From Idiomarina sp. MD25a (lineage in GTDB: Bacteria; Pseudomonadota; Gammaproteobacteria; Enterobacterales; Alteromonadaceae): a stretch of DNA of 64,000 nt. The position numbers were made by a program, and so were the translations under genes. The notes beneath the pieces are model-generated. The model was not told where the DNA came from and did not search any database. It saw only the letters and a list, made by a program, of their open reading frames with translations. The stretch is taken from assembly GCF_001870515.1 (NCBI RefSeq), contig NZ_MDGT01000003.1, positions 1 to 64,000 on the forward strand, read 5' to 3'. Shown here piece after piece: positions 20,370-26,227 of this stretch (its first letter is position 1; each line of letters starts with the position of its first letter).

Positions 20370-21056
20370 TTATAACATCGCCCGTAACACATCGAGCAAA
20401 CGCTCAGCCGTTTGTTCAGATGATGCGGGGTTTTGACCCGTAATCAACATACCGTCCTGTACAGCATAAGACTGCCAGTCATCAACCTTACGATAGTGAC
20501 CGCCTTTTGCCGATAACTCATCTTCGAGGAGGAAAGGAACCACGTCAGATAACCCGACGCCATCCTCTTCGGAGTTACTAAATCCAGTGACCGTGCGACC
20601 TTGGACTAGAGGGTCTCCGCCCGGTGTCTTCGCATTAAGCAGTACCGCAGGGGCATGACACACTGCAGCGACAGGCTTACCTTTCGACCAAAACTTCTCA
20701 ATCAAATCAATCGATTGTTCATCGTTAGTGAGATCCCACAATGGACCATGTCCACCTGGGTAAAAGATAGCATCAAAATCATCAACACAGACTTCATCAA
20801 GCTTGCACGTACTACTAAGTTTTTTCTGTGCATCCTGATCTTCATTAAAACGTTTAGTCGCTTCTGTTTGAGCATCTTCCGCTTCACTGTTTGGGTCAAT
20901 AGGCGGTTGTCCTCCTTTGGGTGAAGCAATCGTTACCTCAGCGCCAGCATCGACAAACGTGTAAAACGGTGCCGCGAACTCTTCCAGCCAAAATCCAGTT
21001 TTGTTACCTGTATCACCTAACTCATCGTGAGACGTCATAACCATTAAAATCTTCAC
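20370..21056 (-). CDS. DJ-1/PfpI-family protein (class I glutamine amidotransferase-like, Hsp31/glyoxalase III type)
   Basis: A 228-residue cytoplasmic protein starting MKILMVMTSHDELGDTG. The nucleophile elbow AAVCHAPA places the reactive cysteine at C133 with H134 next to it. A conserved acidic residue occurs in GFWLEEFAAP (E25/E26). This architecture matches the Hsp31-like branch associated with glutathione-independent glyoxalase or protein deglycase activity; the activity is not decided by sequence. It sits between the pqqU receptor (convergent) and the sigma-54 regulator gene (42 bp upstream). Linkage to either is unproven. Confidence 0.85.
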   Translation of the reverse strand: MKILMVMTSHDELGDTGNKTGFWLEEFAAPFYTFVDAGAEVTIASPKGGQPPIDPNSEAEDAQTEATKRFNEDQDAQKKLSSTCKLDEVCVDDFDAIFYPGGHGPLWDLTNDEQSIDLIEKFWSKGKPVAAVCHAPAVLLNAKTPGGDPLVQGRTVTGFSNSEEDGVGLSDVVPFLLEDELSAKGGHYRKVDDWQSYAVQDGMLITGQNPASSEQTAERLLDVLRAML

Positions 21057-21098: not shown

Positions 21099-22445
21099 TC
21101 AGCTTTCAGATTGATCAGTTTGACCCTCTAACCAACGATAAAGTGTGCGCCGCGTAACGCCTAAAATTTCTGCCGCCTTTTTCTTATTGCCACCCACATG
21201 ATTCATAACGTCCTGAATATATGCATCTTGATGGGCTTGCAAGGTATGCCAGTGTGGCTGTTTATCGGCTGTTGGATCACGCACTTCCAGCATGCGCTCG
21301 GGTAGATCATCGACTTGTAAATGGTGCGACTGCGCGAAAGTCACCGCGCGCTCAATCGCGTTTTGCAGTTCTCGTACGTTGCCAGGAAAACGATAACGAT
21401 AGAGTATGTCCAGTGCATCGGTATCAATGTCAGTGATACGCTTACCCGCCTTTTCTGCATAAATACTAATAAAGTGATGCGCTAAACGCTCAACGTCCTC
21501 GCCTCGTTCACGTAACGCAGGTACCGTCACACTGAAGGTTTCTAATCGATAAAACAGATCTTCACGAAACTCGCCATCCCGCACACGCTGCTCTAAATTT
21601 TGATGGGTTGCAGCAATAATACGTACATCAACTTTTTCTTCCTCATCACTGCCCACCGCGCGCAAGGTTCCTTCTTGTAACACCCGGAGCAATTTAGCTT
21701 GAAGTGCCAACGGCATTTCACCGATTTCATCAAGCAGTAGGGTGCCACCATCAACCTGTTTGAACAGCCCCAAGCGTTTGCCTTGAGCGCCAGTGAATGC
21801 CCCTTGCGTATGACCAAAAAACTCACTTTCCATCAGTTCTGAGGGAATGCCCGCGCAGTTCACTGCTTGAAAAGGTTTGTCGCGCCGCTCGCTAAGCTCA
21901 TGGATTGCGCGCGCAACCAGCTCTTTACCGGTGCCAGATTCGCCGGTAATAAGTACACTGCCATCGGCTGTGCCGAGTCGCTCAATTTGATGATACAACT
22001 TACGCATTGCGGGACTTTGACCGATAAGTCCTGCGGGTCCTTTTTGCTGCGACTTAAAACGAGTCAACTCTTGCTTTAATAAGCGATGCTCTAACACTCG
22101 TTGCACACTCAGAAGCAGATGCTCAACATCAAGTGGCTTAGTCAAGAAGTCAGCCGCTCCTTGTTTTAGCGCATCAACCGCCTGATCGACGGTGGCAAAC
22201 GCGGTAATCAGGATGAGTGCGGGCGCGCCCGCCTCTCTGACATGCTCAAGTAGTGACAAACCTGAAGAACCGGGTAGGCGAATATCACTGACAACGACAT
22301 CAACCGAAGGCAGCTCAGCTTGATAGTCCTCGGTTGATGGAAAGGCAAAAACTTTATAGGCCTCTGCTTCAAGCTCCTCAACAAGTAGCTCACGTAGCGC
22401 TGAGTCATCTTCAACAACTGCGATTTGCGCTGTATTAGCTGTCAT
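21099..22445 (-). CDS. NtrC-family sigma-54-dependent response regulator
   Basis: A 448-residue three-domain activator. The receiver domain has acidic residues E12-D13-D14 and phospho-acceptor D54 (VVSDIRLPG). The AAA+ domain has Walker A GESGTGKE, the sigma-54 contact loop GAFTGA and Walker B GGTLLLDEIGEM. A Fis-type helix-turn-helix ends the protein (KKKAAEILGVTRRTLYRWL). The frame extends to 22520, but the ATG at 22445 has AGGAGA and begins directly at the receiver domain. It overlaps the histidine kinase gene by 11 bp, so the two are a cognate pair. The intact GAFTGA predicts true sigma-54 activation. Confidence 0.93.
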   Translation of the reverse strand: MTANTAQIAVVEDDSALRELLVEELEAEAYKVFAFPSTEDYQAELPSVDVVVSDIRLPGSSGLSLLEHVREAGAPALILITAFATVDQAVDALKQGAADFLTKPLDVEHLLLSVQRVLEHRLLKQELTRFKSQQKGPAGLIGQSPAMRKLYHQIERLGTADGSVLITGESGTGKELVARAIHELSERRDKPFQAVNCAGIPSELMESEFFGHTQGAFTGAQGKRLGLFKQVDGGTLLLDEIGEMPLALQAKLLRVLQEGTLRAVGSDEEEKVDVRIIAATHQNLEQRVRDGEFREDLFYRLETFSVTVPALRERGEDVERLAHHFISIYAEKAGKRITDIDTDALDILYRYRFPGNVRELQNAIERAVTFAQSHHLQVDDLPERMLEVRDPTADKQPHWHTLQAHQDAYIQDVMNHVGGNKKKAAEILGVTRRTLYRWLEGQTDQSES

Positions 22446-23916
22446 TTGAATCTCCTGATCTGAGTCCTGAGTGAGGAAGTGATAAAGTCGCGCAACAACC
22501 GCCCTGAGAGCGGTTTTCAAGCTTCAATTGGCCGTCATGATCGTTCATGATGTGTTGCACGATGGTCAATCCCAACCCTGTCCCTTCACCCGTCGTTTTA
22601 CTGCTGTAAAAAGGTGAAGTGGCATGCGTCTGAGCGCTTTGAGTAAGTCCGTCACCATCATCCATAATCATAATGGCGGTCGCGCTTGGTGTTTGACTCA
22701 CAGCAATACGCACCTCTGATTTAGCCGCTTGATACGCGTTTCGTAGCACGTTCACTAATGCCAGCTCCATACGGGATACATCAACCTTAAAAACTTCATC
22801 GCCCTGATACTCAATGACACATTGGATATCATCATTCTCGAGCTCAAATCCCACACTAGTGCAGGCGCGCTCTATCAGCGCTTTTATCGGCACTTGTTGG
22901 CGTTCGCTCACAGGCGTGCGAGAAAAGGCGAGTAGTTGATTGACTAATCTTGTTAACCGATGAACTTGACCCCGAATGGCTTGCAGTTGGCGCTTATCGT
23001 CATCGCTAGTCGCATGTTTCAACAGCTTTTTAGCACGGTTATCGATCACCGTGAGCGGTGCACCAAGCTCGTGCGCAACACCACTCGATACTGAACCGAT
23101 CGCGGCCATTTTTTCTTGCGCGCGCAGGGCTTCGTTCAAGCGCTGCTCTTCTTGTCTTCTGTCACGGATTTCGTGCTCGGCTCGCGTCACCGCCTCAAGC
23201 ATTTCATTCAAGCCCTGGCTAATTGCTACAATTTCGCTCGGCCCTTGGGTGTCTACCCGCACGTCGCGACGACCTTGCGCGACTTGTTGCATAATATTTC
23301 GAAGATACAGAACATGACGCCCTACACCGCGATAATGACCAAAGACCAGTACCGCGATAGTCACCACCGCAAAAATAAACCAACTAATCCACGCGACTTG
23401 GCTTAGTTGCTCAAACCGTTCATCAAAATCGCTGGCGCGTCGATTGATTTGCAGAAGGCCAATAATACGGCCGCCACGATCAACAATCGGGAGAAACTGT
23501 GAGAAGACTTCACGACCCTCAACTTGACGATAATCATCTTGTGACACGCCCGTTTGAACTGTTTGTCGCGCTAACCAGCTATCGGATAAGTCGGTTTCTG
23601 TCACGCCAGCTTCCGCCACTTGTTGACCGTTCACGTCGTAAACTGAGGCGCCGTACACACGACCAATATTGAATACTGAATCAAGGTTGGCTTGCACAGT
23701 GGTCAAATCATTGTTTAACAACGCATCACTGATAGGCAGACTGATTGCCCGACCTATCAATTTAAGATCGGTTTTAAGCCGCTCTTCTTCTTGTTGACCC
23801 GCAATATTCAACCCAAAGGTTATGGCAGCCCCAGAAATTAGGAGCATCGGAATGACCACGTACAGCAACAGGCGGCGCTGAATACTTGAAAGCGGTAAGG
23901 TGTATCTTTTTGTCAC
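22435..23916 (-). CDS. Sensor histidine kinase, partner of the sigma-54 regulator
   Basis: A 493-residue membrane kinase. TM1 lies at about residues 15-38 and a periplasmic sensor region at 40-175. TM2 at 178-200 is followed by a HAMP-like segment, a short coiled coil (EHEIRDRRQEEQRLNEALRAQEKMAA), a HisKA domain with phospho-acceptor histidine in SSGVAHELGAPL, and an HATPase domain with N box (NVLRNAYQAA) and GEGTGLGL. The start is the GTG at 23916, because GGAGG lies 4 nt before it. The more upstream ATG (23949) is inside the palindromic operator. No ligand can be deduced for the periplasmic domain. Confidence 0.9.
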   Translation of the reverse strand: MTKRYTLPLSSIQRRLLLYVVIPMLLISGAAITFGLNIAGQQEEERLKTDLKLIGRAISLPISDALLNNDLTTVQANLDSVFNIGRVYGASVYDVNGQQVAEAGVTETDLSDSWLARQTVQTGVSQDDYRQVEGREVFSQFLPIVDRGGRIIGLLQINRRASDFDERFEQLSQVAWISWFIFAVVTIAVLVFGHYRGVGRHVLYLRNIMQQVAQGRRDVRVDTQGPSEIVAISQGLNEMLEAVTRAEHEIRDRRQEEQRLNEALRAQEKMAAIGSVSSGVAHELGAPLTVIDNRAKKLLKHATSDDDKRQLQAIRGQVHRLTRLVNQLLAFSRTPVSERQQVPIKALIERACTSVGFELENDDIQCVIEYQGDEVFKVDVSRMELALVNVLRNAYQAAKSEVRIAVSQTPSATAIMIMDDGDGLTQSAQTHATSPFYSSKTTGEGTGLGLTIVQHIMNDHDGQLKLENRSQGGCCATLSLPHSGLRSGDSNDS

Positions 23917-23931
23917 ATTACCTCCTTGGTG

Positions 23932-23986
23932 TGTATCAAAATGATACATAAGAAACTGTAAATTTTCTTCGTATCATTTTCGATAT
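23932..23986. promoter_or_regulatory. Two palindrome-like operator/enhancer sites between the kinase and DUF4168-like genes
   Basis: Site 1 is a perfect 7-bp inverted repeat, TGTATCA-AAA-TGATACA (23932-23948). Site 2 is GTATCATTTTCGATAT (23971-23986), imperfect but sharing the 10-mer GTATCATTTT with the reverse strand of site 1. The half-sites GTATCA are 38 bp apart. They lie roughly 60-115 bp upstream of the predicted sigma-54 transcription start, the usual place for NtrC-type activator enhancers. Site 1 also abuts the kinase ribosome-binding site, allowing autoregulation. Confidence 0.6.
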
Positions 23987-24021
23987 TTATTTTTCCTTTA
24001 TATTTCATGGTGTTATAAATT

Positions 24022-24037
24022 TGGCATGATCTTCGCT
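24022..24037 (+). promoter_or_regulatory. Candidate sigma-54 promoter of the DUF4168-like gene
   Basis: TGGCATGATCTTCGCT matches the -24/-12 consensus TGGCACG-N4-TTGCW with two changes, and the invariant GG and GC dinucleotides are at the required spacing (12 nt start to start). The predicted transcription start is about 24047, leaving a ~33-nt leader before the ATG at 24080. Confidence 0.6.
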
Positions 24038-24079
24038 TAAGTAATATCGACACGTTTTTTCGAACAACAGGAGTTCATC

Positions 24080-24466
24080 ATGAAAAAGACAATGATTGCA
24101 TTAGCATCAGCAATGACTTTAGCCACGACTGCTGCAGCAGCGCAAACTCAAGATAACGCAATGCAGAATCAGATGGCTCAACAGCAAGCTCAACAAAAAA
24201 TCACTGAAGGTATGTTAGTGAAATTTGTTGCAGCAATGGAAGACGTACAAAAAGTGACGACAAAATATCGTGACAAGTTCCAAAATGCTGAAAATCAAGA
24301 GCAAGCGCGTAGCATCCAGCAAGAAGCACAAAAAGAAATGATCGCAGCTGTGGAAGATTCAGGTCTGACGCCACAGCAGTACAACATGATCATTCAGCGT
24401 GCACAAAGCGATGAAGAGCTGCGTACACGTCTTCAAGATATGACATCAGGTGAAGGCAACTCGTAA
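24080..24466 (+). CDS. Small periplasmic DUF4168-like protein
   Basis: A 128-residue protein with a signal peptide (residues 1-21, cleavage near AAAA-QTQ). A glutamine-rich linker (QNQMAQQQAQQK) is followed by a helical domain with the pattern ITEGMLVKFVAAMEDVQKV ... EAQKEMIAAVEDSGLTPQQYN ... RAQSDEELRTRL, which resembles DUF4168. Function unknown. AGGAG precedes the ATG. It is transcribed away from the kinase-regulator pair across a spacer with enhancer-like repeats and a sigma-54-like promoter, and it ends in its own strong terminator. It is therefore the best candidate target of the two-component system. Confidence 0.8.
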   Translation: MKKTMIALASAMTLATTAAAAQTQDNAMQNQMAQQQAQQKITEGMLVKFVAAMEDVQKVTTKYRDKFQNAENQEQARSIQQEAQKEMIAAVEDSGLTPQQYNMIIQRAQSDEELRTRLQDMTSGEGNS

Positions 24467-24486
24467 TTGAGGCGCAAAACTTAGTT

Positions 24487-24516
24487 AAAAGGGCGGTCTT
24501 AGTACCGCCCTTTTTT
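24487..24516 (+). terminator. Intrinsic terminator of the DUF4168-like gene
   Basis: AAGGGCGGT (24489-24497), loop CTTAGT, ACCGCCCTT (24504-24512) running into a T6 tract. It makes the small periplasmic protein gene a monocistronic unit. Confidence 0.9.
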
Positions 24517-24580
24517 GATCATAATCGCCTGTCATAACGTAGCACCTTAGTATTCATGTGAATTTAAAAGGAGTGTCTAA

Positions 24581-26227
24581 GTGAAAGCGGCGGACCTCAT
24601 GGTAAAAGCTCTCGAGAATGAGGGTGTAGAATATGTGTTTGGAATCCCAGGAGAGGAGAATCTCGATCTGCTCGAGTCTCTCTCAAATTCATCCATCGAA
24701 CTCGTATTAACTCGTCACGAACAGGCGGCAGGTTTTATGGCGGCAACCTACGGAAGGTTGACAGGAAAACCCGGCGTCTGCTTGTCTACTCTTGGACCCG
24801 GTGCAACCAACTTAGTCACTTCAGTTGCTTATGCCCAACTGGGTGCAATGCCGATGGTAGTCATCACGGGACAAAAACCGATTAAAGACCGCCCGCAAGG
24901 TCAATTCCAGATCATTGATGTTATCGATATGATGACGCCAATCACTAAGTACACTCAACCAATTATTAGTGCTAAGACGATACCTTCGCACGTGCGAGAG
25001 GCTTTCCGTCGTGCCGAAGATGAACGGCCAGGTGCAGCGCACCTTGAGCTATCAGACGATATTGCCGCTGAAGAGGTTGATGCAACCCCAATTACACCGA
25101 GTTACTCGCGTCGTCCGATTACTGAGCATAAGTCTGTCGATTACGTATTAAAACTGTTGAAGGAGGCCAAGCACCCGTTGATTGTGATCGGTGCTGCTGC
25201 CAACCGTAAAATTACCGCGAAGATGCTCCGTGCGTTCGTCGATAAGACAGGTATTCCGTTTATCACAACGCAAATGGGTAAAGGCGTCATTAATGAAGAT
25301 CATCCACGTTGGTTGGGCAATGCCGCGGTATCCGACGGCGACTATCCACATCGTGCCATAGAACAAGCTGACTTGATCCTCAACGTCGGTCACGACGTCG
25401 TTGAGAAACCGCCATTTATGATGAAACCTGATCAACGCAAGGTGGTTCATATCAACTTCCAGGGTGCCCAAGTCGATTCTGTTTATTTCCCACATGCCAG
25501 TATGATTGGCGATATTGGTAATAGCATTTGGCAGCTTAAAGAAGGTATCGAGCCGCAGTCTCATTGGGATTTTGAGTTCATGCTTAAAGTACGCGAGCAT
25601 ATGCGTGATCATACCGATGAAGGTGCACATGATGAGGCTTTCCCTATGTTACCTCAGCGCCTAGTAGAAGAAGTGAGAGAAGTCATGCCAGACGACGGTA
25701 TCATTGCGTTGGACAATGGTATCTACAAAATCTGGTTCGCTCGCAATTATCCAGCGCGCCAGCCAAATACAGTCTTGCTCGATAACGCGTTGGCATCGAT
25801 GGGTGCAGGTTTACCTTCCGCGATGGCCGCTAAATTGGTTCACCCAAATCGCAAGGTGGTTTCTATCTGCGGCGACGGTGGCTTTATGATGAATTCGCAA
25901 GAAATCGAAACCGCTGTCCGTATGAACCTCGACTTGGTTGTGCTTATTCTAAACGATAGTGCTTACGGGATGATCAAGTGGAAACAAGAGCACATGGGCT
26001 TGCATGACTTTGGTTTAGACTTTAAAAATCCTGATTTTATAAAATATGCAGAAGCTTACGGTGCCAAAGGCTATCGATTAGCTGCAACGGAAGAACTGCA
26101 GCCACTGATGCGTGACTGCATGGAGCAGGGTGGTGTACATATCATTGATGTTCCGGTTGATTACTCGCGTAATGTTGAGCTGCTCAACGAGGAAATCCCT
26201 AAACGTGCGAAAGCAATCCAAGCCTAA
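24581..26227 (+). CDS. Acetolactate synthase large subunit-like ThDP enzyme
   Basis: A 548-residue thiamine-diphosphate enzyme. The N-terminal domain has VFGIPGEENLDLLESL, the catalytic glutamate in TRHEQAAGFMA and LGPGATN. A central domain follows, and the ThDP-binding GDGGFMMNSQEIETAVRMNLDLVVLILND has GDG and the downstream N. The GTG at 24581 is preceded by AAAGGAG. No ilvN/ilvH small subunit is adjacent, so it resembles the stand-alone AlsS-like group more than biosynthetic IlvB/IlvI. No acetolactate decarboxylase is nearby; other 2-oxoacid chemistry cannot be excluded. Confidence 0.82.
   Translation: MKAADLMVKALENEGVEYVFGIPGEENLDLLESLSNSSIELVLTRHEQAAGFMAATYGRLTGKPGVCLSTLGPGATNLVTSVAYAQLGAMPMVVITGQKPIKDRPQGQFQIIDVIDMMTPITKYTQPIISAKTIPSHVREAFRRAEDERPGAAHLELSDDIAAEEVDATPITPSYSRRPITEHKSVDYVLKLLKEAKHPLIVIGAAANRKITAKMLRAFVDKTGIPFITTQMGKGVINEDHPRWLGNAAVSDGDYPHRAIEQADLILNVGHDVVEKPPFMMKPDQRKVVHINFQGAQVDSVYFPHASMIGDIGNSIWQLKEGIEPQSHWDFEFMLKVREHMRDHTDEGAHDEAFPMLPQRLVEEVREVMPDDGIIALDNGIYKIWFARNYPARQPNTVLLDNALASMGAGLPSAMAAKLVHPNRKVVSICGDGGFMMNSQEIETAVRMNLDLVVLILNDSAYGMIKWKQEHMGLHDFGLDFKNPDFIKYAEAYGAKGYRLAATEELQPLMRDCMEQGGVHIIDVPVDYSRNVELLNEEIPKRAKAIQA

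Follow-up and report, generated by a model that had tools for sequence, protein, structure and literature searches.

In CpxPAR and Spy, as proposed for the locus described here, a small helical exported protein is under envelope two-component control; CpxR is not known to be a sigma-54 activator. ZraP, the exported protein of ZraPSR, reportedly acts as a chaperone and represses ZraSR. We studied a 64,000-nucleotide stretch of Idiomarina sp. MD25a (contig NZ_MDGT01000003.1, positions 1 to 64,000; hereafter, the window), where the gene for a small exported DUF4168 protein faces the genes for a sensor histidine kinase and an NtrC-type response regulator. We consider it likely that these form a three-gene envelope-signalling unit, in which a periplasmic signal acts through the kinase and the operator-bound regulator on sigma-54 transcription of the DUF4168 gene.

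Among known systems, ZraPSR comes nearest in design. The likeness starts with the layout: here and in Escherichia coli, a divergent small exported gene lies opposite an overlapping kinase–regulator pair, and the sigma-54-like site for the small protein scores 20 on our scale in both. In E. coli, ChIP-exo located ZraR at zraP, zraSR, and mgtA, a very small direct regulon, while 12 further peaks are judged possibly spurious (PMC7657598). According to another paper, ZraP represses when zinc-bound, and Vibrio cholerae has a zraP2-zraS2-zraR2 unit that was named so despite its unrelated first gene (PMC10848872). Thus, loose use of the Zra name has precedent.

Linkage of the kinase, promoter, and operator

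In the genus, all 19 genomes contained DUF4168, with a divergent kinase gene at each of the 19 loci. In the family sample (118 genomes), DUF4168 was present in 18 genomes and the kinase in 14 (E <= 1e-40, with up to 13 candidates scored in each genome), and all 14 had DUF4168 at adjacent coordinates. The class sample displayed DUF4168 relatives in 31 of 369 genomes. Altogether, the 80 named loci comprise 52 divergent ones, 11 with co-directional kinase, regulator, and DUF4168 genes (Ectothiorhodospira, Thiohalobacter, Methylohalomonas and kin), and 17 without a visible kinase; the kinase of L112 lies about 800 bp away. These locus lists were seeded with DUF4168, and the converse –a kinase without DUF4168– was tested only by the family-sample kinase search.

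The sequence-only reading of the window had placed a sigma-54 promoter, TGGCATGATCTTCGCT, within a 163-bp spacer between the kinase and DUF4168 genes. The spacer length is right, and the promoter is real and conserved. We scored -24/-12 elements within 160 bp upstream of DUF4168, using our own weights, which were set before the control run. A score of at least 20 was reached in 59 of the 64 kinase-bearing loci (48/53 divergent, window included, and 11/11 co-directional), against none of 577 control regions, which were the 150 bp upstream of mechanically called open reading frames (ATG, at least 150 aa) from the same 80 loci. A stricter, exact promoter pattern matched once each in 12 of the 19 genus genomes, all 12 just upstream of DUF4168, and its reversed control gave no match in the 19. 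Pointing at the kinase, no site scored 20 or more in the 52 divergent loci (four reach 18.5–19, and the best of the window scores 13), whereas zraS has a kinase-directed sigma-54-like site of 20. A consensus scan of 23800–24600 retrieved no sigma-70 promoter, and rpoN has a single match in the window's genome.

For the operator, the main site TGTATCAAAATGATACA is a 17-bp palindrome and the sole perfect TGTATC-N5-GATACA in the 2.68-Mb assembly. It lies in the kinase leader, just upstream of the ribosome-binding site, and begins 90 bp ahead of the sigma-54 element. Using the consensus TGTRWC-N5-GWYACA, with at least 10 of 12 positions matched 60–175 bp upstream of the promoter, we found it in 51/53 divergent and 10/11 co-directional loci, where dinucleotide shuffles expect 3.31 and 0.27. 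The only independent test set for the operator, 17 kinase-bearing loci from other lineages chosen by organism, presented it in 15 cases against 0.56 expected. Two GTATCATTTT sites had been proposed earlier as enhancers; one belongs to this conserved operator, and the other (23971–23980) has decayed in the closest relatives, to GTATGATTTT in L003 and L021 and to TTTGATTACA in L022, so we rejected it as an operator. Lack of conservation of the spacer motifs had been set beforehand as the refuting test, and what we observed is that the sigma-54 element and the main operator are kept with the kinase in several gammaproteobacterial families. At the level of sequence comparison, the linkage of kinase and DUF4168, the promoter, the main operator, and their going together are shown.

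The loci without a visible kinase bear on the same association. Whole genomes were searched for 14 of these 17, with all candidates scored, and the kinase was absent genome-wide (E <= 1e-40) from 13. The regulator is also absent from those 13, with best paralogues of at most 47% identity vs. 55 and 62% in two regulator-bearing genomes. The 14th genome, a metagenome bin (L121), contains a kinase–regulator pair on another contig and kept both a promoter scoring 21 and a 10/12 operator. Two Pseudidiomarina loci (L069, L070) and one from Lacimicrobium (L084) have neither the kinase nor the operator nor a promoter that scores 18; their relatives carry the full unit. One kinase-less locus, L086, ends at a contig edge, and among the 16 scored for promoter and operator, three presented an operator of at least 10/12 (L095, L119, L121; 0.67 expected).

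Targets and proposed circuit

When operator and promoter were searched jointly (ATACA-N45-75-sigma-54), the DUF4168 promoter was matched in 18 of the 19 genus genomes –G131 was missed– and was the one match in the window's genome. Outside DUF4168, six matches were spread over five other genus genomes; the reversed control gave five matches. Five of them were examined and presented an operator of 9/12 at best; the sixth (G118:C9) is outside those five. The window's genome also contains eight one-mismatch operators, and none has an outward-pointing sigma-54-like site (at least 18.5) within 250 bp. Thus, on operator and promoter matches, a single target would be the best reading, in line with the one secreted-protein target first suggested for the window.

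A broader regulator, for which the adjacent DUF4168 gene is merely the best-conserved local target, seems unlikely to us. NtrC-type regulators often have scattered targets, our operator searches tolerate little degeneracy, and copies with up to two mismatches occur at 84 places in the window's genome against 37 for the reversed pattern. However, that genome has one perfect operator, no sigma-54-like site near the one-mismatch copies, and one joint operator–promoter match, and no kinase without DUF4168 was seen in the 14 kinase-bearing genomes of the family sample.

Among the off-target matches, the sequences in G118 and G121 are similar, and the one in G121 (L167) is without an operator. L172 (G126) has a sigma-54-like site on the 5′ side of the gene for a predicted exported protein and lacks the operator described above; it is possibly the target of another activator.

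A further site, TGTATCTTTTTGTCACA, which was absent from the sequence-only reading, lies 31 bp upstream of the main operator and overlaps the kinase start codon. We consider it a probable second operator. Defining a pair as sites 28–37 bp apart, one matching at least 10/12 and the other at least 9/12, the spacings in divergent loci are 30, 31, 32, 34, or 35 bp.

In the three-gene unit we propose, the PAS/Cache-like domain of the kinase would sense a periplasmic cue, leading to autophosphorylation and then to phosphorylation of the regulator. The regulator would oligomerise on the 17-bp palindrome and, in the divergent layout, probably also on the second copy, at a distance of about three helical turns. 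From there, it would loop to the sigma-54 RNA polymerase, which sits about 90 bp further downstream, and turn on DUF4168, its one target, in a burst of exported protein. In our view, DUF4168 is most likely a helical accessory protein, abundant in the periplasm, which would buffer damage to the envelope and may also damp the kinase as ZraP does ZraS. In the window, the operators also lie over the leader and start codon of the kinase gene, so the kinase genes may be damped as well. We infer the phosphotransfer, the activation, the role of DUF4168, and the envelope signal, the last solely because the kinase has a periplasmic sensor domain.

Several points weigh against this proposal, besides the degenerate operator copies and the sixth off-target match. 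Four of the 18 DUF4168-bearing family genomes are without the kinase. Half of the scored kinase-less loci (8/16) reach 18 on the sigma-54 scale, and seven of these are Alteromonas-type loci (L093, L095, L097, L103, L113, L119, and L122, from Alteromonas, Salinimonas, and Aestuariibacter) whose genomes contain no such kinase or regulator. Another activator thus probably serves DUF4168 there, which limits the claim that the kinase–regulator pair is always needed. Four loci (L110, L112, L116, L123) each fell short on one of the two promoter criteria. The operator consensus was drawn after seeing the window-family loci, so the 17 loci from other lineages are the fair test. The operator pair was found in 48/53 divergent loci (window included) but in only 1/11 co-directional ones, and its outer site overlaps the first codons of the kinase (VTK), that is, coding DNA, in most divergent loci. 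As the pair is mostly confined to divergent loci and sits on the kinase start, coding constraint may account for some of this conservation. Finally, the chaperone role and the feedback on the kinase are suggested by analogy only.

Several upstream regions of the Alteromonas-type loci carry a repeat of another kind, TGTGA...GACA, which hints at a separate activator.

The position of the two sites also raises the possibility that the regulator, bound at 23901–23948, controls its own operon too, by keeping transcription or translation of the kinase gene from starting. The unit would then chiefly limit itself by negative feedback, and be less of an inducible stress response. In the window, both sites indeed overlie the leader and start codon of the kinase gene, and the second stands out chiefly in divergent loci. 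Nevertheless, we regard this as improbable: in 10/11 co-directional loci the main operator is upstream of DUF4168 and away from the kinase start, so its main job would be the DUF4168 promoter, and the location of the sites could reflect simple compactness or coding constraint.

The three proteins and known systems

At the protein level, Pfam identified HisKA and HATPase_c in the kinase, and Response_reg, Sigma54_activat, and HTH_8 in the regulator. The histidine box of the kinase is HELGAPL (residue 293). Its HAMP match scored 24.1 against a cut-off of 25, and its CHASE8 match was also below the Pfam cut-off. In the structure model (mean pLDDT, the predicted confidence, of 88.9), two long helices, taken as transmembrane, flank a mixed alpha/beta periplasmic domain modelled as two helices followed by a strand-strand-helix-strand-strand-strand core. 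By topology only, this sensor appears PAS/Cache-like; in the PDB it matched only chemoreceptors, kinases, or HAMP, and weakly (E 0.0033 at best). For the kinase start, we rejected the ATG at 23949 in favour of the GTG at 23916. Conservation begins at VTK, and in L054, L055, L059, L071, and L076, a stop closes the upstream frame before VTK.

Eight Pseudidiomarina kinases (L064–L068, L072–L074) kept the periplasmic sensor and have the HAMP region (about 50 aa) gone, with the second transmembrane helix joined directly to the dimerisation helix, whereas L077 retains HAMP. They provide a natural test of HAMP-less signalling.

The regulator is an NtrC-type sigma-54 activator by its receiver, AAA+ domain with GAFTGA, and Fis-type helix-turn-helix (HTH), together with the linked sigma-54 promoter and upstream operator, and it shares 98% identity with its I. 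baltica OS145 counterpart. Both regulator and kinase genes are on the minus strand with an 11-bp overlap, and DUF4168 is divergent on the plus strand. The gene coordinates, the Pfam domains, and the GAFTGA read directly agree with the initial description of a kinase overlapping an NtrC-type regulator. With NtrC itself, the regulator shares the domain order and GAFTGA, and the 17-bp palindromic operator resembles the NtrC box (TGCACCAnnnTGGTGCA; PMC8743547). It differs in its half-site, in its score (434.5 bits against the NtrC model cut-off of 558.6), and in having a membrane sensor kinase with a periplasmic domain as partner. In a tree, 61 regulators formed one clade apart from E. coli ZraR, NtrC, and AtoC with 100/100 support, these three sequences being the only references and all on long branches.

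Direct descent of the three proteins from ZraS, ZraR, and ZraP, as a distant ZraPSR orthologue, is already disfavoured and in our opinion very improbable, despite the same gene layout, the sigma-54 promoter, and the overlapping kinase–regulator genes. The regulator is 40% identical to ZraR and 43% to NtrC, belongs to the separate clade, and scored 346.5 bits against the ZraR model cut-off of 760. The kinase shares 28% identity with ZraS, confined to the kinase core, with AtoS scoring higher, and reached 120.9 bits against the ZraS cut-off of 479; in NCBIfam, none of the best 25 models for either protein was over its cut-off. The exported proteins have no significant similarity (E 0.22), and DUF4168 contains neither Cys nor the His/Cys-rich tail of ZraP. 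A zinc link for the DUF4168 unit is unsupported. Thus, the unit would work like ZraPSR but is no member of it, judging by its regulator clade, kinase, and exported protein.

For the DUF4168 protein, the match to PF13767 is clear (53.7 bits against a gathering cut-off of 25.8, E 4.4e-14), and all 52 aligned proteins match it at E <= 10. It presents an N-terminal signal peptide (seen by eye, with an AXA-type cleavage site at about residue 21), then a Q/M-rich linker and a four-helix C-terminal part, without Cys or His. The structure model is confident in the C-terminal part only (helices 43–68, 73–93, 98–110, and 112–123). After a fixed cut of 22 residues, Cys was found in 0/80 DUF4168 proteins and His in 7/80. 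No NCBIfam model matched the window protein, and up to E 1 its single match among solved structures was a designed helical protein (E 0.011).

An LTPQQ motif had prompted us to consider kinship with LTXXQ, the Spy/CpxP/ZraP family, but neither Pfam nor the comparison with ZraP gave support. LTXXQ was not among the nine Pfam matches of the window protein, nor among the 25 most frequent of the 163 Pfam families matching the 52 aligned proteins (E <= 10).

Within the genus, an LTXXQ match (E <= 0.001) was found in 1/19 genomes and in none of the other 18. With the genus nearly without LTXXQ proteins, a functional stand-in is plausible, although this is not evidence of one. We propose only tentatively that the unit evolved independently in Gammaproteobacteria of marine and halophilic habit, as a sigma-54 envelope-stress system of three components and a counterpart of ZraPSR/CpxPAR. 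DUF4168 proteins would then be periplasmic accessory proteins of a new class, protecting the envelope and feeding back on the kinase in the niche of the LTXXQ proteins. The comparison suggests that a kinase and a sigma-54 activator were combined more than once with a single exported accessory protein, the accessory proteins being unrelated, and the co-directional rearrangement and the kinase-less loci offer natural tests of this repeated origin. Moreover, a domain of unknown function gains a likely regulator, promoter, and operator, and its role becomes testable by ordinary genetics.

The three-gene unit is apparently undescribed so far. In the open-access literature, with most subscription journals outside its scope, no paper mentioned 'DUF4168' or 'PF13767', and on Idiomarina two-component sigma-54 systems nothing relevant was among the matches listed, which included one Psychromonas genome paper.

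Feature coordinates and neighbouring genes

The features are collected in Table 1. The terminator of the DUF4168 gene folds at -17.3 kcal/mol (z -4.27). A consensus scan found none at this 3′ end, in our opinion because the stem pairs into the T-run. With this hairpin, the PF13767 match, and the signal peptide seen by eye, the divergent small exported gene with its own terminator, as first read, is borne out.

Table 1. Features of the kinase–regulator–DUF4168 locus, in window positions
Feature	Position	Strand	Remarks
NtrC-family response regulator gene	21099..22445	-	448 aa, ATG at 22445; receiver, AAA+ with GAFTGA, Fis-type HTH
Sensor histidine kinase gene	22435..23916	-	GTG start at 23916 (VTKRY...), AAGGAGG before start
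Kinase periplasmic part	23437..23778 (approximate limits)	-	Between two transmembrane helices; structure model
Probable second enhancer site TGTATCTTTTTGTCACA	23901..23917		On kinase start codon
Main enhancer site TGTATCAAAATGATACA	23932..23948		Perfect palindrome TGTATC-AAAAT-GATACA
Second GTATCATTTT box of the sequence-only reading	23971..23980		Decays in relatives; probably no operator
Sigma-54 (-24/-12) promoter TGGCATGATCTTCGCT	24022..24037	+	GG-N10-GC
DUF4168 gene	24080..24466	+	128 aa; PF13767
Intrinsic terminator	24487..24514	+	Closes single-gene unit

Elsewhere in the class, three genomes (G419, G286, G397) contain four or five DUF4168 matches each, so the family has expanded there.

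Two neighbouring genes, both named by eye, are not counted as part of the signalling unit. A DJ-1/PfpI-like gene lies downstream of the regulator gene (20370–21056, minus strand), and its relatives were found near DUF4168 in 27 loci, all from Idiomarina or Pseudidiomarina, including the kinase-less L069 and L070. The other, a TonB-receptor-like gene, is near DUF4168 in 29 loci, nearly all from the same two genera.

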